39,410 bases of DNA, taken from assembly GCA_031290155.1 (NCBI GenBank), contig JAITOB010000026.1:1-39410 (forward strand), read 5' to 3'. Source of the stretch: Endomicrobium sp. GTDB lineage: Bacteria; Elusimicrobiota; Endomicrobiia; Endomicrobiales; Endomicrobiaceae. A program made the position numbers and the translations under genes. This document shows positions 2,108 through 39,015 of the stretch, piece by piece. Numbering within the stretch: the stretch's first letter is position 1; each line of letters begins with the position of its first letter. Below the pieces are notes generated by a model. That model had not been told where the DNA came from and did not search any database. It worked only from the letters and a program-made list of their open reading frames with translations.

Positions 2108-3057
2108 TGCTTTTATTCTTTCTTCAATAGCCTTGTTTGGCGGAAATCCTGAAATTTTTGAAAAAAGAGTTTTGTTTGTTTTTCAGCAGAGGACTTGCAA
2201 TACATCTCGGCGCAATAGTTTTTTTGTCGTTTAACCGCTGAACTGTGGAATTGCGTGAAATCTTTTTAAAGCATTTATAAGTCCCTGAGAATTTCTTGTT
2301 ATCAAAGCGGCGGTTGCGTCAGCTTGAAATTTTCTTGTACGCGATACCGCAAATTTAATAAGTGCAGCTGACAAATATCTGTATATGTAGAAAGCTCCTG
2401 CAAAAGCAAATAAAAATAGTCGCGTTGTATTATTTTTAGAATTTTTTGTTCTTGCCGTTAATGCGTAACGCAACAGTAATTTCGCTGCGATAGTCGCAAA
2501 ACCTATGCATACGATCATTATAAGCATAAGTCTTAATTCCTGATTCCTGTTTTCTATATGCGCCATAACGCCCTCAAGTTCTGTTTTTTCAAGAGTGTTA
2601 ATAATGCCCCTTTGTTAAAACTATATAAGAATGTTTTGGGTTTCTTCCGGTGTTGCAAAAGCGTTTAACGCATCGTCATTTATTACATAAACTTTTGGGG
2701 TAGGAAGTCCTGCCGTTATAGCTGTATTTTCAACAATACGTATTATTTCGAGAGCGTTTTTAACTGTAAACTCAACTCCCGCGGCTGACAGGATAAAGCT
2801 TTGCCCTGCAGAATAACTTATTAAAATCCATAAAATTGCTATAACTGACACAATCGGCAGCACTTCTGCGGCCAATTGATTTGCAGCGTAAGTGCTGATG
2901 TATAGCTGCAAGGCTGGCCGTTGAATGTTCCTATAATACTCGCTAGTAGAATTACGACGTAAACTATTGCCGTTAGGCTTATAGGAAATAAAATCATAAG
3001 CCATACAGTTTTTCTGGAATTTGAATCGATAAAATCATAAATTGTCGTATTTGGCAT
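2060..3057 (-). pseudogene. htpX: HtpX-like membrane M48 zinc metalloprotease, frameshifted and active site deleted
   Basis: Pieces in several frames rebuild an HtpX-family protease. The N-terminus has IDSNSRKTVWLMILFPISLT and a first membrane helix (from 3057). A middle part carries ENTAITAGLPTPKVYVINDD and LNAFATPEETQ (about 2780-2630). The C-terminal part carries AVSRTRKFQADATAALITR (about 2340) and FPPNKAIEERIKALE (to 2060). Frames change near 2900, 2600 and 2230. The catalytic HExxH helix, normally GVMAHELAHIENR, reads GVMAHIENR: four residues including the catalytic Glu and one zinc-binding His are absent. The start overlaps the stop of lemA as TAATG, so lemA and htpX formed one transcription unit behind the sulfatase gene. 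It cannot encode an active protease. Confidence 0.9.
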
Positions 3058-17394: not shown

Positions 17395-17976
17395 ATGAAT
17401 AAGCAGATGAGTCTTTTTGTAGGGCTTGGTAATCCGGGCCAAAAATATGAAAATACCAGACATAATTTTGGTTTTGTTGTTTTAGATGAAATAGCAGAAT
17501 CAAAACATCTGAAATTTAAAACTTGGGATAATATTGCAGAAATTTCTTTTTATAAGAGTAATAATGGTAAAGTATGGTTTTTAAAGCCAATGACTTTTAT
17601 GAATCTCTCAGGAGATGCAATTTCTTCTTTTGCAAAATATTATAAAATTACAAGTGAAGAAATATTTGTTTTTTACGATGATTTTTCAATACCGCTTGGT
17701 GAATATAAAATAAGAATGTCAGGTTCTTCCGGCGGACATAACGGGATAAATTCTATAATAGAACATATGCATACCGGCGATTTTCCAAGGATGAAGCTTG
17801 GTATAGGGCCTCTTTTGAGGTTTATGAACGCTGCAGATTTTGTATTGTCGCAGTTTTCACAAGAAGATAGAGAAAAGATAAATTTAATAAAAAAAATAAG
17901 TGTCAAAGTTTTTGATGAGATATGCATATCAGGACTTGATAAAACGATATCCAGATTTGCAAATATAAAATTATGA
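17395..17976 (+). CDS. pth: Peptidyl-tRNA hydrolase
   Basis: The 193-residue enzyme frees tRNA from prematurely released peptidyl-tRNA. GLGNPGQKYENTRHNFG holds the catalytic His23. TFMNLSG (Asn70), FYDDFSIPLG (Asp95/96) and GGHNGINS supply the remaining active-site residues. The length is standard. The predicted ATG 17395 has an alternative ATG four codons later. Its stop overlaps the start of the MetV-like gene (ATGA), so the two are translationally coupled. Confidence 0.95.
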   Translation: MNKQMSLFVGLGNPGQKYENTRHNFGFVVLDEIAESKHLKFKTWDNIAEISFYKSNNGKVWFLKPMTFMNLSGDAISSFAKYYKITSEEIFVFYDDFSIPLGEYKIRMSGSSGGHNGINSIIEHMHTGDFPRMKLGIGPLLRFMNAADFVLSQFSQEDREKINLIKKISVKVFDEICISGLDKTISRFANIKL

Positions 17977-18261: not shown

Positions 18262-19119
18262 TTGAAATTTAAAGAAAAATTAAAATCAAATAAATTTTTG
18301 ATAACAGCGGAATTATTTCCTCCAAAAGGCGTTGACATTTCTTCTTTTTTGCGTAGAGCGGACTGTTTATCTGGAATTGACGCTGTAAATGTTACTGACA
18401 ATCAGAGAGCGTCTATGAGAGTAGGATCTCTGGCTATGAGTAAAATTCTTCTTGAACGCGAGGTAGAGCCTATTTTACAAATTACCACAAGAGATAAAAA
18501 TAGAATTGCGTTGCAGTCTGAATTATTAAGTGCAAGCGTTTTAGGGATAGAGAATGTTTTGCTTTTAAGTGGAGATCATCCGGATACCGGTGAGTATGCC
18601 GGAACAAAAGCGGTGTATGATTTGGACACCATACAACTTATAAAAACTGCAAGACTTTTAGAAACTGGTGTAGATTTAGCAGGAAAAGTGTTGCGCGGCA
18701 GTCCTAAATTCTGTGTCGGCGGAGTTGTAAATCCATCGGCGCAGCCGAGTGATTTACAAGCGTTAATGTTTGAAAAAAAAGTAAAAGCAGGAGCTGAGTT
18801 TTTTCAAACGCAGGCAATTTTTGACGTAAATGCCTATAAGGATTTTTTTAATAAAATAAAAAATCTTAAAATAAAAGTTTTACCCGGCATTATTCTTATT
18901 AAATCTCCTAAATTTGCGCAATTTCTGCAGTCGCTTTCCGGTATAAATATACCGCAGGAAATAAAAGATAGAATATGTTCTGTTTCTGATCCTTTAGCCG
19001 AAGGTATAAAGATATGTTCTGAAACTATTAATGTGCTTCGTTCCTTTGCGGACGGAGTTCATATAATGGCAATTGGCACAGAAGAATATATACCGGAAAT
19101 AATAAAAAATAGTTTATAA
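18262..19119 (+). CDS. metF: 5,10-methylenetetrahydrofolate reductase
   Basis: The 285-residue TIM-barrel protein reduces methylene-THF to methyl-THF for methionine synthesis or a one-carbon pathway. The TAELFPPKGVD start has the FAD-site Glu of the family. DAVNVTDNQRASMR, EPILQITTRDKNR, LLSGDHP and GAEFFQTQAIFD follow in the usual order, then LPGIILIKSP. It resembles the short MetF that works with MetV rather than E. coli MetF. Translation begins at TTG 18262: AGGGAG at 18247-18252 lies nine bases upstream and no ATG fits. The 80-base gap before it contains a weak hairpin (ATTATTCA...TGAATAAT). Confidence 0.9.
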   Translation: MKFKEKLKSNKFLITAELFPPKGVDISSFLRRADCLSGIDAVNVTDNQRASMRVGSLAMSKILLEREVEPILQITTRDKNRIALQSELLSASVLGIENVLLLSGDHPDTGEYAGTKAVYDLDTIQLIKTARLLETGVDLAGKVLRGSPKFCVGGVVNPSAQPSDLQALMFEKKVKAGAEFFQTQAIFDVNAYKDFFNKIKNLKIKVLPGIILIKSPKFAQFLQSLSGINIPQEIKDRICSVSDPLAEGIKICSETINVLRSFADGVHIMAIGTEEYIPEIIKNSL

Positions 19120-19132
19120 TTGGATAGGCGTT

Positions 19133-20054
19133 ATAAAGAATACAGAAAGAATAGCGGTTATTTTATTGATGTTTGTCGTTTTTTCGCAAAGCACTTTTGC
19201 GGCATCTGCATGAACAGCTTTTTTTGTTTCTTAAAAATGCCTCAAAATGCAGTTCAAGCAGCTTTAGCGGGTATGACTGCTTTTTTAGCAACATCGTATC
19301 TTTTTCAGATCCTGCGGCCATGTCTTTTGTTGATAAGTATAATATATCAGCGTCTTATGCTGTGCATTTTCAAAATTCCGGTTACTATTCTTTCAGTTTT
19401 ACTGTGCCTTTATACTTTGCCGAATCTTCGGATAAAATCGGTGTAAAAATTTCTTATCGTAGTTTTGATTATGGGAAAATAGACAGATATGTTGAAAGCG
19501 CAGATGGTGATTACGTGCAAAACGGTATATTTACCGCGTCTGACGCTGTTACGCAAATAAGTTTTGAATATAAATTTTATAAAATTTATCATACGGAGGA
19601 AGTTTTAAATACATATGCCAAGACATAGACGGCAGTAAGCTTGCGGAAATAGGCCGATATGTCTGTTTTATTTTTCTCAAAAGACAATTTTGGTCTGTAA
19701 CTGGCGCGTTTGAAAATATCGGACCGCGTATTAAAGGTTATCCTCTCCCTTCAAGCCTTTATATTTCTTATACGGATATTTTTGTAGATTCCTTTAATTT
19801 TGCGATTGAACTTAAATATTTTACCGACACTGCAATGTGGTTTAAAGCTGCTGTGGAAGTCAATAAAAATAATATGTTTTTTAAGAGGCGGTTACAGCTG
19901 TCCTCTTAATAATGACAATCAGACTTTAGGGGAGTGGTATCAAAGAAATTTAACATTAGGTTTTGGTTTCAATATAAAGCTTATATCGATAAACTATGCA
20001 TGGTTTCCTTTTGGACAGCTTGGCTGCACAAATATATTTTCTTTACAAGCATAG
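19133..20054 (+). pseudogene. PorV/UPF0164-like outer-membrane beta-barrel protein, multiply frameshifted
   Basis: The frames join as follows: a signal peptide (IAVILLMFVVFSQSTFA, about 19145-19196); MPQNAVQAALAGM in another frame; then from 19300 to 19620 DPAAMSFVDKYNISASYAVHF, with SGYYSFSF, VPLYFAESSDKIG and FTASDAVTQISFEYKF; then GYPLPSSLYISYTDIF; and finally NLTLGFGFNIKLISINYAWFPFG to the stop at 20054. This is the layout of PorV-type 14-strand barrel proteins (NPAGLS-like box, then repeated beta strands). At least four frame changes and an in-frame stop right after the signal peptide rule out a product. It lies directly before a broken secreted protease with a sorting domain. Confidence 0.75.
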
Positions 20055-20061
20055 TTAAAAA

Positions 20062-21992
20062 ATGAAAAATATAAACATATTTGTTATCAGATTTTCAAAT
20101 AATATTTTTAAAATATTATTGTTATTAGTTATTGCCGTATTAATTTCTTTTATGCAGGCTAATAGCGCAGATATTTTAAGCGATAGATTAAAAGATTTAG
20201 CATCTTCTTCGGCAGAAACAAATATTAAGGTACTATTCTATCCTATAGATTGGGATTCTGGCAAAATTGATACAAGTTTTTTTAATTTACATAATATAGA
20301 GTATAGGAAGTCAGATAGTTTTATGACAGCTTTTATTCCGGTATATCTTATTAATGAGCTTGCGGACATTCCCGGAGTGAAATATATAGACCTTCCCGCC
20401 GGATCAACCCTATGGAAACTGTAACTGAAGGCAGAGATGCAGTTAATGCAACAAAGTTTTTTGTAAATAATATTGCAGGCGAAGGTGTTAAAATAGCAGT
20501 TATAGATAGCGGATTTGCAGGGTTTGATAAAATTCAAAGGATGGGAGGGAGAACTGCCCCGTCAGCTTATAACTAAAGATTTTACAGTAAAATCTCAGCC
20601 CCCTATCCCTATAAATCCGAACTGGAATCTTCAAATACAGCTCATGGTTCGGCATGTGCGGAAATAATATACGATATAGTTCCGCAGGCAGAAATATATT
20701 TGCTTAAAATAGATGACGAAGCGTCGTTTGAGAATGCATATAAGTACTGCATGGCGGGAAGGGGCTGGCATTAATGTTATAAGCGTTTCAATGGGATTTA
20801 ACGTAAATGATTTTTTTATAGACGGGAGCGAACGATTAGAGCGAATAGTTGATTTAGCTTCTGCAAAAAAATGTTTTATTGGTTATTGCCGTAGGCAATG
20901 AAGCAGAGAAATCTTGGTTTGGCAAATTTAACGATTCAAGAACTGGATTTACAAAGTTTCCTAACGGTAGCGAATTTTTAGATGTTTATCTTCCAATAAA
21001 CTCAAAAATACATTTGATTTGGAACGATTTTAAAAACAGGAATACAGCATACGATATGTATATATTTGATAATAATGATGTACTTGTATGGTCAAGTTCT
21101 TTTACTGCTAACGGGATTAATTTGCCGCATATTGAGTATGTTAAATTCGTAAAAGCCGCGATAGGTCGAGTAATTCTATGGAAATGAAGTTATCGTTTGA
21201 ATCCAATGCTATTAATTTTTCACCAATTTTAAACAATATTGACAAAAATCCAGAATCAAGCTTATGTTCTCCAGGTGACTCAAGAACGGCTTTAACGGTT
21301 GGAGCTGTAAATTAAAATTATTACGATAACGGGCTGTATAGAACCTTTTAGTTCTCGTGGTCCTGTGCGCTCTAATGCTTGGCTGTCATTGCCAGATATG
21401 GATAAATCCGATATTGTTGCTCCTGACAGGGTGTCTACAATATCTTTAGGTTTTAGATCTTTTACAGGAACGTCGGCATTAATGCCTCATGTTGCCGGAG
21501 TTGCCGCTATGCTGCTGAGCCTGAATCCAGCTCTTTCAACAAATACTTCCAATGGCGAGTTTAAAAAACGTATTGTTGATTATATCAAACAAATAATATC
21601 TTCGCCTGATAATATTTACGGCCGCGGGGAACTTTTTCTAAATTCAGATATTATTTCATATGATACTGCAGGTGATTTTGTATGTTATCCAAATCCCACA
21701 AGCGTAAGTAAAAAAGGGTATATAAAAATAACAAATTTACCTTTTTATACCTCTATGATAGATATTGCAGTTTATATGGTTCCGGGGGGGGGGGGGATTT
21801 GTAAGATCTTTTAATGCAGAAGATACAACCGCAATATCTATCAAGAATGACAAGAATGAAATTGAAAGAAGAATGATAAATTGGAATTTAAAAAATCAAA
21901 GCGGAGATCAAGTTGCTCCCGGTATATATTTTGTAATCATAAAAACGCTGCTTGGCGAAAAACACATAAAAAAAATTGTTGTTCAACAATAA
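20062..21992 (+). pseudogene. Secreted subtilisin-family (S8) serine protease with C-terminal sorting-type domain, frameshifted
   Basis: The remains run in order. A signal peptide (20062 on) and propeptide come first. GVKIAVIDSGFAGFDK carries the catalytic Asp, HGSACAEIIYDIVPQAEIYL the catalytic His, and INVISVSMGFNVND and VIAVGNEAEKS follow. TSALMPHVAGVAAMLLSLNP carries the catalytic Ser. The C-terminal module has CYPNPTSVSKKGYIKITNL, a 13-base G tract (21784-21796), then SFNAEDTTAI and GIYFVIIKTLLGEKHIKKIV, like the FlgD-fold/type A sorting domains of type IX secretion substrates. Five or more frameshifts or stops occur. All three catalytic residues can still be found, so decay is recent. 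The preceding gene is a decayed PorV-like protein, a typical type IX component. Confidence 0.85.
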
Positions 21993-22663: not shown

Positions 22664-23290
22664 GTGTTGAATCTTTCTCTGATTTATTCTGCAGTGGTTA
22701 ACGGGATAGAAGCGAATATAGTTGAAATTGAAACATATATTCATCTAGAATGCCGGTTTTTCCATTGTGGGGCTTCCTGATGCTTCGATAAAAGAATCTC
22801 GCGACAGAGTAGTAGTCGCCGCTATGAATCCGTGTCCGTGCGGTAATCTTGGACATCGTGAAAAAGAATGTGTTTGCAATCCTTATCAGATAAAAAAATA
22901 TCAAAATAGAATCCCCGGCCTTTAATGGATAGAATTGATCTTCATATTGATATGCCGCCTCTAAAATTTTCCGAACTTTCAACATTTAATGATAATTCTG
23001 AAAGTTCGGCGAATATAAGGAAAAGGGTCATTGAAGCAAGAGAAATCCAAAATGCCAGATTTAAAGAAAGTGGTATATATGCAAACGCTCAGATGCAGTC
23101 AAAAGAAATAAAAAAATATTGTATTTTAGACGATAATGCTTATGAAACGCTTAAAACAGCAATTGAAAAGTTAAATCCTAGCGCGGTCTTATACAAAATT
23201 TTAAAAGTTTCAAGAACAATCGCAGATTTAGCCGGCAGTAATAATTATATAGCCGAAACATTACAGTACAGATTTTTTGATAAATGCTGA
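22664..23290 (+). pseudogene. comM: ComM/YifB-type Mg-chelatase-like AAA ATPase, central domain deleted
   Basis: The N-terminus reads LIYSAVVNGIEANIVEIETY, then GFSIVGLPDASIKESRDRVV in another frame, which is the first 45 residues of the YifB/ComM family. AAMNPCPCGNLGHREKECVC follows without a break. This comes from the C-terminal half of the protein, so the whole Lon-like and AAA Walker A region (about 270 residues) is missing. A one-base loss at 22920 shifts the frame before MDRIDLHIDMPP. The C-terminus (KRVIEARE, KVSRTIADLAGS) then runs to 23290. ComM is a hexameric branch-migration helicase that helps natural transformation. The gene is dead. Confidence 0.88.
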
Positions 23291-23492: not shown

Positions 23493-23900
23493 ATGAAGAA
23501 TTATTTAAAAGAATTTGATAAGTTAGTGAATATATTTGCAACTTTGCGTTCAAAAAACGGATGTATGTGGGACAGAGAACAAACGCATGAATCTCTTGTA
23601 AGACACTTATTTTTAGAAGCAGAAGAGGTAAAAAAGGCTGTTGAAAGCAAGGATATGGAAAATCTTGAAGAAGAGCTTGGCGATATTTTGCTTCAGGTTA
23701 TGTTTCATTCTCAAATTGCAAAAGAGAATAAGAATTTTGACATTGCAAAGGTAATAAGAAAGCTAAATAAAAAACTTATTCGCAGACACCCGCATATATT
23801 CGGCAGTTATAAGGTTCAAAATACAAGAGATATTGAAGTTATGTGGGAAAAAATCAAGGCAAAAGAAAAAACCTTGAAAAAATATAAAAGTAAAATATAG
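23493..23900 (+). CDS. mazG: MazG-family nucleotide pyrophosphohydrolase, single domain
   Basis: The 135-residue protein contains GCMWDREQTHESL, the metal-binding EAEEVKKAVE, and LEEELGDILLQVMFHSQIA with the EExxD part. KLIRRHPHIFG and VMWEKIKAKEK are the family end boxes. E. coli MazG has two such domains in 263 residues; this is the single-domain form. It hydrolyses NTPs to NMP and pyrophosphate and is thought to clean damaged nucleotides. The gene is intact although both neighbours are decayed. No clear ribosome site precedes the ATG at 23493. Confidence 0.88.
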   Translation: MKNYLKEFDKLVNIFATLRSKNGCMWDREQTHESLVRHLFLEAEEVKKAVESKDMENLEEELGDILLQVMFHSQIAKENKNFDIAKVIRKLNKKLIRRHPHIFGSYKVQNTRDIEVMWEKIKAKEKTLKKYKSKI

Positions 23901-23915: not shown

Positions 23916-25923
23916 ATGTTAAAAACGATTTTTCAGTTTAGGAAATTAGCCGCGGTTTTTATTTTTGTAATTGCATTAGCAAGTTTGTCTTTTGCAAGCG
24001 AAGCCAATTTGATTGTTCTGAATTTAGCTTCTGTCAGTTTTTTTGAAAATGCGGTTAACGGTAAAATGCTTTTAATGTTTGGTTTTTTTATTTGTGCTTT
24101 TGGTTTGATGTCTGGACTCTACCATTTTTTAAGTATTAAAAATCTTCCAGTTTATAATTCTATGAAATCTATTTCAGAACTTATCTATGAAACGTATAAA
24201 ACGTATCTTGTAACTCAAGGCAAATTTATAATAGTTGTTGCTTGCGACTACAAAATAGTATATTTTGGTTTGTTGCAGCATCATAGGAATTCTAGGCAGT
24301 TACACAGTAGCGTGGTTTGGAATGAGAATTAACACTTTTGCAAATTCAAGGACTGCTTTTGCAAGTTTGAAAGGCAGACCTTTCCCGCTTTATGCAATAT
24401 CGCTTAGAGCAGGTATGAGTAAGAGATGCTTTCGATAAGTATAGAACTGTTTATAATGCTTGTAATTCTGCTTTTTATTCCCTCAGATTTTGCAGACGTG
24501 TTTTATAGGATTTGCAATCGTATAATCTCTGGGTGCGCCTGTCCTTAGAATAGCAGGTGGAATATTTACAAAGATCGCGGATATTGGTTCAGATTTAATG
24601 AAAATTATATTTAATATTAAAGAAGACGATGCGAGGAACCCCGGAGTTATTGCAGGAGATTCCGTAGGACCTACTGCAGATGGTTTTGAAACTTACGGAG
24701 TAACAAGGAGTAGCTTTAATAACATTTATAGTGCTTGCTGTGGATAATCCGGATTTATAGGTTAAATTTTAAGTATGGATTTTCGTAATGCTTTTAATTA
24801 TGCTTTTGTCAAGCGCTATTTCTTATGAATCAATTCTATAATTGCAAAAGTAAGATATTCTGCTTTAAAAAAAATGGATTTTGAAGCCCCTTTAACATCT
24901 CTCGTATGGATAACTTCTATAGTTTCAATAATATTTATTTTTATTGTTTCTAATCTTGTAATCGGCGATTTGGGAGATGGAACTTTTTGGTGGAAACTTT
25001 CGCTTATTATAAGCTGCGGAACAACAGCCGGCGCAATTATTCCTGAGGTTGCAAAGATTTTTACTTCTGTAAAAAGCGATTTTGTACAAAATGTTGTCAC
25101 TTCTTCAAGATACGGTGGGGTGTCGCTTAACGTTTTGCAGGTCTTACGGCTGGAAATTTCAGCGGTATTGCTTATGCGATAAGCTTAAATGGGTCTTGGT
25201 TCAATTATGATATTTTCAACAATAGTTATGCTTACGGAAGGCCTTACAACAGGACTTGAAAATCTCTCTGTGCTGTATGCGCCTTTTCTGTTAGGTTTAA
25301 TTGCAGGTGGAGTGGTTATTTACTGCTTTACCGACGCTTCCAACCATGCTGTAACAAGCGGCGCATATAAAGCCGTAGAGTTCATTAAGAATAATATAAA
25401 GCTTGATGGCAGCGCAGATAGAGCTTCCACTGAAGATTCTAATAAAGTTGTTGCAATATGCACCAGATATGCGCAAAAAGGTATGATAAATCTGTTCCTT
25501 GTTATTTTCTTTACAACTCTTGCTTTTGCATTCGTCGAACCTTACTTTTTTATAGATTATCTTATTTCAATAGCTTTATTCGGTCTTTTTCAAGCGATAT
25601 TTATGGCAATCGCCGGTGACGCATGGGATAATGCAAAGAAATATGTTGAAGTTGATCTGCATGAAAAAGGAACTGAACTTCGCAAGGCTACTGTTGTCGG
25701 AGATACAGTGGGAGATCCGTTTAAAGATACTTCTTCTGCCGCAGTGAATCCTATAATTAAGTTTACAACGCTTTTTGGGCTTCTAGCGCTGGAGCTTGCG
25801 TTAGTACTTGCTACAAAAAGAGCATTAAATACTGCTCTTGCGGGAGTATTTTTTAGCATTGCAGTAATATTTGTAATAAAGTCATTTACTGATATGCAAA
25901 GTAAAGATAAAGAAGTGCAATGA
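23916..25923 (+). pseudogene. hppA: Membrane-bound proton/sodium-translocating pyrophosphatase, frameshifted and catalytic loop deleted
   Basis: Fragments in all three frames match one HppA protein of about 650-700 residues. In order they are: the N-terminal helices from 23916 behind [88 protein letters not shown]-like helices; ISCGTTAGAIIPEVAK; YAPFLLGLIAGG; CFTDASNHAVTSGAYKAVEF; GDAWDNAKKYVEV; and GDTVGDPFKDTSSAAVNP to 25923. The loop between PGVIA and GDSVG lacks about seven residues (expected DCTGDNA or similar), removing pyrophosphate/Mg-binding acids. Six or more frame breaks are present. The last 245 residues (25189 on) are one open frame, but without the rest it cannot work. Confidence 0.93.
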
Positions 25924-38001: not shown

Positions 38002-39015
38002 TTACATATTTTTGTCCGGAGTTGTTTTTATCAGTCCGTTTGCTTCAAGCTTTAAAAGCGTCAGCGCTATTTCTGAAGTTTCAATGTTTAATTTTTGCGC
38101 AATTAAATCCAGCGGCAATCCATCACTGTCATTTTCTATCAAATTAAGAACTTCTAATTCAAGTTTATCAAGTTTATGCGTATTATCTGTTTTTACAGGT
38201 TTATCTTTAGGAACCCATTCAAGTTGTTTTGCCATATCGTCAGGACCTAACGCAATTAAATTGCCGTTTTGTATAAGTTCATTTGTTCCTTTTGATACTG
38301 TTGAATATATATTGCCGGGAACTGCAAAAACACCTTTTTCGTATTCGGCACAGAATCTTACGGTTATTATTGCTCCGCTTTTAATTACCGCTTCTGTAAG
38401 CAAAATTGCTGTAGAAAATCCCGCAATAATTCTGTTTCTTCTAGAGAAAGTTCCTCTATCCGGTTTTGATGCAAGAGGAAATTCGCTGATGACTGCGCCG
38501 CTGTGTGCAATCTTTTCTTGAAGTTTTGCATTTTCGGGCGGATAATTTACGAGCAGTCCGTTGCCTAGAACTGCTACAGCTCTTGATTTATTTTCTAAGG
38601 CTGTAATATGCGCTTGGGTGTCAACTTCCCTTGCAAGACCTGAAACTATAGTTATTCCTTTTTTACAAAATAAGATGCAACTCCGATGTAACTGTTTTTC
38701 CGTAATTGCTTATTTTTCTTGATCCGACTATTGATATAGAATCAAAGTCTTGTTCTAAAATGCTACCTTAATGTAAAGTACAAGAGGTTTGTCAGTCAAA
38801 TTTTTTAACGGTTTAGGATAGTTTTTATCGTTATAAAGTATAATTTGTATATTGTTCTTTACTGCGTTTTCTAGTTCTTTTTCAACTTCAACAGACTTTA
38901 AAAGCTTTAAGAATTGCCTCCGCATCTTCAAATTTGTCAATCAGTCTAAAAAACCTTACTGTGCCGATGTTTGCTGACAAAATTAGCTTAAATAAAGACA
39001 AATCTTTTCATTCAT
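38002..39015 (-). pseudogene. dprA: DprA/Smf DNA-processing protein, frameshifted
   Basis: The reconstructed order on the minus strand is: MNEKICLYLS; LILSANIGTVRFFRLIDKF; EKELENAVKNNIQIILYNDK; NYPKPLKNLTDKPLVLYIK; ILEQDFDSISIVGSRKISNY; ITIVSGLAREVDTQAH-like; AVLGNGLLVNYPPEN; ISEFPLASKPDRGTFSRRNR; ILLTEAVIKSGAIITVRFCA; and a winged-helix end to 38002. The Rossmann GSRKIS...GLAREVD...FSRRNRIIAG signature is complete but lies in several frames, with breaks near 38985, 38900, 38770 and 38670. DprA loads RecA on incoming single strands in transformation. The gene is dead, although its last 133 residues stay open. Confidence 0.93.

Follow-up and report, generated by a model that had tools for sequence, protein, structure and literature searches.

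Remains of a probable carrier-cargo gene pair of a type-IX-like export route in a termite-gut Endomicrobium (Elusimicrobiota)

We analysed a 39,410-nucleotide stretch of DNA (contig JAITOB010000026.1, positions 1 to 39,410, GenBank assembly GCA_031290155.1; hereafter the window) from Endomicrobium sp., a termite-gut flagellate endosymbiont of the genus Candidatus Endomicrobiellum in the phylum Elusimicrobiota. The window is contig C21 of a genome (G000) of 1.11 Mb that is 85% complete. Between positions 19130 and 22577 it holds three broken genes: a PorV/PorQ-family outer-membrane barrel and a subtilase with a C-terminal sorting domain (CTD), both on the plus strand, and a small barrel on the minus strand (Table 1). 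The first two are of the carrier and cargo types known from the type IX secretion system (T9SS), and what they may be remains of is the subject of this study. The trio is flanked by uninterrupted pth and metF-like genes before it and, after a comM remnant, by mazG. The same succession, with the metF-like gene first, then barrel, subtilase, an oppositely oriented barrel of 190 amino acids (aa), comM and mazG, is found in the locus of Endomicrobium sp. Po218_bin97 (L068), our reference for counting frame changes in all three genes; thus the trio is a syntenic relic and not a chance resemblance. Comparisons covered 159 Elusimicrobiota genomes, 41 of them from the window's genus, and 14 controls.

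Table 1. Features in and around the broken trio (positions in the window).
Feature	Position	Strand	Observation
PorV/PorQ-family outer-membrane barrel pseudogene, proposed cargo carrier	19130..20054	+	6 frame changes and 1 stop relative to the L068 ortholog
S8 subtilase pseudogene with T9SS-type CTD	20062..21992	+	8 frame changes and 1 stop relative to the L068 ortholog
Type-A-like CTD of the subtilase	21647..21992	+	split over two frames at a 13-G run (21784-21796)
Small predicted outer-membrane barrel pseudogene, ~190 aa	22055..22577 (approximate)	-	2 frame changes and 1 stop relative to L068
pth	17395..17976	+	uninterrupted synteny anchor; immediately precedes the barrel in L063, L064, L065, L067 and L069
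metF-like	18262..19119	+	uninterrupted synteny anchor; adjoins the barrel on its upstream side in L068 and stands two genes before it in L072 and L073
comM/yifB remnant (name presumed)	22666..23290 (ends approximate)	+	lacks 274 of 506 aa and has further frame changes; unbroken in L063-L069
mazG	23493..23900	+	uninterrupted synteny anchor

Read through its breaks, the barrel matches the PorQ model NF033711 at 2.4e-12, and its piece at 19788-20054 matches the PorV_fam model NF033709 at 2.8e-5, both under the curated cut-offs; the family barrel profile A4 recovers it at 19179-20051 with an E value of 3.9e-62 and 4 stops. Unbroken orthologs measure 301-330 aa. Three of the five scored pass the PorV_fam cut-off of 90 bits, L068 with 95.8 and L073 and L076 likewise (95.7 and 95.3 being among the scores), while L063 (84.3) and L072 (80) stay below it; a separate test of two more gave 90 bits for L022 and 82.2 for L026. 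NF033710, the equivalog model for PorV proper, is weak on the orthologs (28.6 bits at best against a cut-off of 250). A preliminary description of the locus, made from the DNA letters, had called the barrel PorV-type: the assignment holds for the PorV/PorQ family, within which the gene is nearer to PorQ and to PorV_fam generally than to PorV proper. A four-row barrel profile found no solved relative in the PDB, and a predicted model of the barrel (predicted local distance difference test, pLDDT, 81) has PorV of the Flavobacterium johnsoniae T9SS as its top two PDB matches in Foldseek (8gl6_F, 5.4e-12; 6h3i_F, 1.2e-10). Across the phylum, PorV_fam matches occur in 144 of the 159 genomes and pass the cut-off in 96. 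Many genomes outside the family have at least 12 scored matches, with up to 60 first-look candidates, and members of family f13 mostly have 1-6.

The subtilase read-through matches PF00082 at 6.9e-19, and the model passes its cut-off, confirming the S8 domain both in the read-through and in the orthologs. The Asp, His and Ser motifs are readable in the window, but in different frames; D161, H205 and S484, which we take to be the catalytic triad, are invariant in four orthologs. Five same-genus orthologs occupy open frames of 648-721 aa and are 47-51% identical, and a sixth ends at a contig edge. As for the tail, the family CTD profile A5 finds it over two frames (E 2.2e-21 and 4.0e-19), and the piece at 21762-21992 scores 15.8 bits with TIGR04183, whose cut-off is 23; the Pfam Por_Secre_tail model alone gave nothing in the window's genome. 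The L068 subtilase tail passes TIGR04183 with 24.6 bits, so the closest named ortholog pair clears the cut-offs for both PorV_fam and the T9SS tail; family searches, which the preliminary description had proposed for PorV and the sorting-domain models after frame correction, came out in its favour. The tail predicted for an ortholog (pLDDT 75) is all-beta, with eight strands. In Foldseek, PorZ matches it best (1.7e-3), with the CTDs of PorU, RemA and RemZ and with FlgD close behind; a second structural comparison places PorU (Z 9.2) and PorZ (9.1) at the top, followed by the mirolase CTD (8qb1, 8.1), NucA (8.0) and RemZ (7.8), with other immunoglobulin (Ig)-like domains interspersed. The Z values are modest, and the fold is a common one; it is sequence, position and pairing that carry the weight. 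The earlier identification of a decayed PorV-like gene beside a subtilase with a sorting-type CTD, and of a third decayed barrel adjoining them, is borne out by the family profiles, the read-throughs and the alignment to L068, and its coordinates were right to within a few bases. CTD-like tails also occur in very large open frames of other Elusimicrobiota (up to 17,295 aa; for example G138:C12:251615-251908), possibly giant surface proteins.

Barrel and subtilase are encoded as a pair in relatives. In each of the 14 named Endomicrobiaceae loci that are intact at the barrel end, the subtilase region is immediately preceded by the barrel gene (a fifteenth, L066, is cut there and was not counted), and other Candidatus Endomicrobiellum genomes carry unbroken copies of both genes. 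The subtilase shows some irregularities, being split in L071 and L090 and having a displaced called start in L064 and L067; in L069 barrel and subtilase are separated by a subtilase-like piece of 122 aa. When the best 150 CTD rows were set against the best 150 PorV_fam rows, 8 of the 150 CTD places had a PorV_fam barrel within 3 kb, where about 1.0 would be expected. All eight neighbours are on the same strand with PorV downstream, an order that is reversed in the Endomicrobiaceae, whose carrier lies upstream of the cargo. Moreover, M6-type proteases and PorV_fam barrels stand together near sprA, the gene for the T9SS outer-membrane translocon SprA (Sov), in L024, L043 and L048; the L048 pair passes both cut-offs (tail 23.6 against 23, barrel 117.1 against 90), and the other two do not.

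Homologs of SprA are widespread in the phylum. The SprA/Sov model TIGR04189 matches 135 of the 159 Elusimicrobiota genomes, among them every one of the 104 outside the window's family (7 from the order, 12 from the class and 85 from the phylum), and none of the 14 controls; the 24 negatives comprise 15 genomes of the same genus and 9 of the same family. Thirteen of these 24 were rechecked with an 18-row SprA profile, which added one C-terminal SprA piece at a contig edge (G079), and all 41 genus genomes were searched with a close SprA, which brought to light remnants in G000, G055 and G007. Two whole SprA proteins match TIGR04189 at 3.9e-39 and 2.1e-29. Among the matches listed, the frames are mostly 1,700-1,950 aa long; a few, in cases of fragmentation or decay, are shorter. 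Searched against the PDB up to an E value of 1, the profile of 18 SprA proteins, in all of which the C-terminal Phe is invariant, retrieved only F. johnsoniae SprA (6h3i/6h3j), at 1.6e-36 and over three colinear stretches; a single-sequence phmmer search of SprA against the PDB gave nothing relevant. Thus, by homology, a predicted SprA translocon is present in the phylum. The preliminary description had made its reading depend on type IX core genes in a free-living relative. G061, a single contig of 1,588,979 bases from another genus of the same family, encodes a SprA of 1,770 aa; judging by its size alone, we take this genome to be that of the free-living E. proavitum, and on that identification the description is upheld on this point.

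A tree of 25 SprA rows fits genus, family, order, class and phylum with the fewest possible changes, as would be the case under vertical inheritance from the phylum ancestor; its rows are all from Elusimicrobiota. This bears on the origin of the pair in the window. Barrel and subtilase could instead be recent acquisitions from termite-gut Bacteroidota, and transfer of genes between flagellate symbionts is on record for this group (PMC11257099). Barrel-subtilase pairs are found, however, throughout the Endomicrobiaceae, including the Candidatus Endomicrobium records L072, L073 and L076, with neighbours that are partly conserved, and the tree, one of SprA, follows the taxonomy. We consider such a recent transfer very improbable.

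The window's genome itself holds only a sprA pseudogene. At the syntenic place lies a shattered sprA (G000:C25:27739-30534), bordered by lptFG-like genes without interruptions and by a truncated comF; it corresponds to about codons 365-1318, with many stops and no detectable codons before or after. Different fragments occupy the same place in G055, G137, G007 and G019, one G019 fragment being on another contig. Of the 41 genus genomes, 14 have a full-length SprA (with a stop reported in G091), 5 a remnant and 22 no SprA that could be traced. Unbroken barrels, as found with A4, occur in 11 genus genomes, and uninterrupted family-type CTDs, as found with A5 at an E value of 1e-53 or better, also in 11; all of these are among the 14 with full-length SprA. 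Nine of the 11 CTDs sit in frames of 562-721 aa, those of G091 and G022 in frames of 218 and 337 aa. An unbroken barrel thus accompanies full-length SprA in 11 of 14 genomes and is found in 0 of the other 27 (Fisher p 1.2e-7, a value that ignores phylogeny and genome size). Partial sets are also seen. G022 has CTD and SprA with no barrel detected; G013 has SprA and barrel with no CTD detected, its subtilase being split and one half running to the contig end; in G134, SprA is accompanied by a broken CTD piece only; and weak or broken CTD pieces, but no SprA, are present in G098, G001 and G015. In G000, sprA, barrel and cargo have all decayed, and the sprA remnant, which the preliminary description had proposed to look for, speaks in favour of its reading. 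A plain FadL channel next to a FlgD-like Ig domain, with no export system, had been considered for the locus and was set aside in view of the SprA homolog in the phylum and the remnant in G000.

Could the broken frames be assembly or sequencing errors in functional genes? One break does fall at the 13-G run. But rplY, pth, the metF-like gene and mazG near the trio are uninterrupted open reading frames, which argues against a general sequencing artefact, an argument limited by the fact that comM and hppA nearby are likewise broken. When these neighbours were aligned as controls, the metF-like gene, rplY and pth showed one frame change or stop each and mazG none; because the three are uninterrupted open reading frames, their single breaks are taken as artefacts of forced end alignment. 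Missing sequence is also at odds with simple errors: the undetected sprA codons on both sides and the 274 lost comM codons, together with the differing sprA remnants of other genus genomes, all speak for decay. We give almost no credence to the error explanation. The 13-G run stands out in a window of low GC content, and its coincidence with the CTD frame break may mark slippage or a base-calling problem.

The surroundings of sprA call for a different alternative to be weighed. In 25 loci, some of which end near sprA, comF lies beside it in 20 and an lptF/G-like permease in 19. SprA homologs might therefore serve outer-membrane or lipopolysaccharide biogenesis together with the LptF/LptG-like permeases, the barrels being FadL-type channels and the CTDs ordinary Ig-like surface modules. 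LptD is reported absent from all Endomicrobiaceae (PMC11257099), FadL ties with PorV for the barrel fold, and neither a motor nor a sortase was detected, all of which would suit this idea. Against it, the SprA translocon is the only homolog in the PDB; SprA co-occurs with PorV-family barrels and CTD proteins, which are often encoded as pairs; and G000 has kept open frames for the lptFG-like genes, whereas its sprA, barrel and cargo genes are all broken. A role confined to envelope biogenesis seems to us distinctly unlikely.

Some further observations concern the sprA neighbourhood. In two Endomicrobiellum genomes, G016 (L019:5086-6831) and G018 (L021:6088-7845), sprA is immediately preceded by the gene of a PorV_fam-like barrel; this barrel carries TPR-like repeats, as examined in L019, and no lptFG-like gene was found in the sprA stretch of either locus. 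In G061, comF and sprA adjoin the gene of a 1,113-aa protein (L023:503-3844) that combines an OmpA domain and an autotransporter beta-domain with repeats like those of the Chlamydia polymorphic membrane proteins.

We consider it probable that the region is what remains of a carrier-cargo unit of a SprA-based, type-IX-like export route, inherited from the common ancestor of the Elusimicrobiota and now being lost in this endosymbiont. This reading draws on carrier and CTD, by homology as well as by fold, on the SprA homology, on conserved pairing and synteny, on the agreement of the SprA tree with taxonomy and on the joint decay in G000. In relatives with unbroken genes, the subtilase would cross the inner membrane via the Sec route, and its C-terminal Ig-like domain would then enter the SprA pore. 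There, loops of the PorV/PorQ-family barrel encoded by the neighbouring gene would bind the CTD, and the barrel-cargo complex would leave SprA sideways towards the cell surface. Such a lateral exit model involving SprA and PorV has been described for F. johnsoniae (PMC10994853). Actual secretion, the specificity of carrier for cargo and the energy source of the system are what we infer from the sequences, as the searches detected neither the canonical motor (PorL/PorM) nor PorN nor the PorU sortase.

Several points weigh against the reading of the locus as part of an export route. Its support is computational. The second structural comparison ties FadL (Z up to 29.5) with PorV (Z 28.7 and 28.5) for the barrel; the predicted fold alone cannot tell PorV from FadL, and profiles and context do. 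Six other tested ortholog tails fall under the TIGR04183 cut-off, with 18.4-22.9 bits, and the Foldseek search with the CTD returned no match at an E value of 0.001 or better, FlgD and other Ig-like domains standing near the top. In the 159 genomes no SprA match reaches the TIGR04189 cut-off of 200 bits, the two whole proteins scoring 133.8 and 101.5. The parts also do not always travel together: G023, 99% complete, has full-length SprA with neither barrel nor CTD by A4 and A5; G132 (99%), G155 and G164 (same family; 180-280 contigs) have CTD-like and PorV_fam matches with no SprA detected; and G046 (99%) has PorV_fam matches, again with no SprA detected.

The motor, ring and sortase components weigh on the same side. 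GldM (PorM) is marginal in 3 of the 159 genomes, GldL (PorL) in 5, one of them at 1.8e-5 in G069, and GldN (PorN) in 1; none passes its cut-off, and no search was made for PorK. PorU matches were obtained in 97 of the 159, none over the cut-off, and the best 150 places all fall in profile positions 861-1095; being confined to the C-terminal part, they were counted as CTD-like domains, and a genuine PorU sortase was rejected on this ground. Through the CTD, the PorU profile also matches two of the 14 controls. The component searches included no T9SS-positive control genome, and these negatives mean not detected with the models used. With PorL, PorM, PorN and a catalytic PorU part undetected, the system is to be called T9SS-like and not a demonstrated T9SS. 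The claim that an ancestor outside the Bacteroidota used type IX secretion is supported in this form, as a set of the SprA-PorV/Q-CTD type. Alternatively, Elusimicrobiota may possess a complete canonical system whose PorK, PorL, PorM, PorN and sortase are too diverged for the profiles. SprA stays under its curated cut-off despite clear homology, so that other parts could escape as well, and the GldL match in G069 would agree with this. Yet GldM, GldL and GldN yield marginal matches only, against the widespread SprA (135), PorV_fam (144) and CTD-like (97) matches in the same genomes, and we think a complete but unrecognized canonical system unlikely.

How does this set compare with known systems? 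The canonical T9SS of F. johnsoniae and Porphyromonas gingivalis shares SprA homology over the three colinear stretches and a PorV/PorQ barrel and CTD recognizable by profile and fold. It differs in several ways: Elusimicrobiota lie outside the Fibrobacteres-Chlorobi-Bacteroidetes (FCB) group; SprA has about 1,770 aa in Endomicrobiaceae compared with 2,403 aa for 6h3i; PorL, PorM, PorN and catalytic PorU were not detected; and many elusimicrobial genomes have many PorV_fam paralogs, with carrier and cargo genes paired. Mirolase of Tannerella forsythia, a T9SS cargo, is the third-best solved match of the subtilase profile (8ehe), and its CTD (8qb1) is among the best folds; it is, however, a Bacteroidota protein, and the sequence match covers the common subtilase core. 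In F. johnsoniae, a type B CTD substrate whose gene lies beside that of a dedicated PorP/SprF shuttle (PMC12618676) offers the same arrangement. The elusimicrobial shuttle, in contrast, belongs to the PorV/PorQ family and the tail is type-A-like, the shuttle lies upstream in Endomicrobiaceae, and the pairing is known from the genes alone. According to PMC7323717, the 'Incertae sedis' class has Sov, PorV, PorQ and PorU without PorK-N and is thus likewise a case of a translocon with PorV/Q and no PorL/M, but it keeps PorU and lies within the Bacteroidetes as that paper defines them; the same paper describes PorU as lacking in Sphingobacteriia, so that it is not universal. Poribacteria, according to PMC3909097, have T9SS-type tails outside the Bacteroidetes without Por structural genes, whereas Elusimicrobiota have a SprA homolog.

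Type IX secretion is described as belonging to the Bacteroidota and possibly other FCB phyla, and according to a 2024 paper (PMC11285876) phyla outside FCB lack T9SS genes. The main text of PMC11257099, on Endomicrobiaceae genomes, contains no occurrence of secretion, T9SS or SprA. An earlier report of a T9SS in Elusimicrobiota was not found in a non-exhaustive survey of the open-access full text accessible to us, subscription papers and database annotations lying outside its scope. The candidate SprA-PorV/Q-CTD set thus appears to be T9SS-like machinery in a phylum with no earlier report in the open-access literature. More tentatively, Elusimicrobiota as a whole may possess a SprA export route that works without PorL/PorM and serves several cargoes, each with an adjacent PorV/Q carrier. 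Such a route would be old and vertically inherited, with SprA predating or standing outside the FCB group, and it would have decayed repeatedly in termite-gut flagellates, where surface export would be unneeded.

The third broken gene and the remaining neighbours complete the locus. The minus-strand barrel is 55% identical to L068:10224-10796 over 173 codons, and its read-through gives a weak match to OMP_TP0733 (0.002). Comparable opposite-strand frames follow the subtilase in L068, L074, L075 and L076; the ~190-aa proteins at L068:10224-10796, L074:6288-6863 and L076:9913-10491 (minus strand) have no Pfam or NCBIfam match at 0.01. The broken hppA homolog, presumably a membrane pyrophosphatase as judged by synteny, lies at 23916-25923 and shows 7 frame changes and 3 stops relative to an 805-aa ortholog in L064; losing an ion pump may also have a bearing on the energy supply in this genome. 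To our eye, short open reading frame pieces at 2231-3004 and 38002-38403 resemble zinc-metalloprotease and dprA-like fragments.

Homologs of the translocon, of the carrier family and of the cargo tail across Elusimicrobiota put the age of this export route, and the choice of parts that it cannot do without, in a new light. If a lineage has no detectable PorL/M motor, the source of energy for SprA transport could be tested directly in it, and the losses inside protist hosts offer a natural series, from full-length genes to erased ones.

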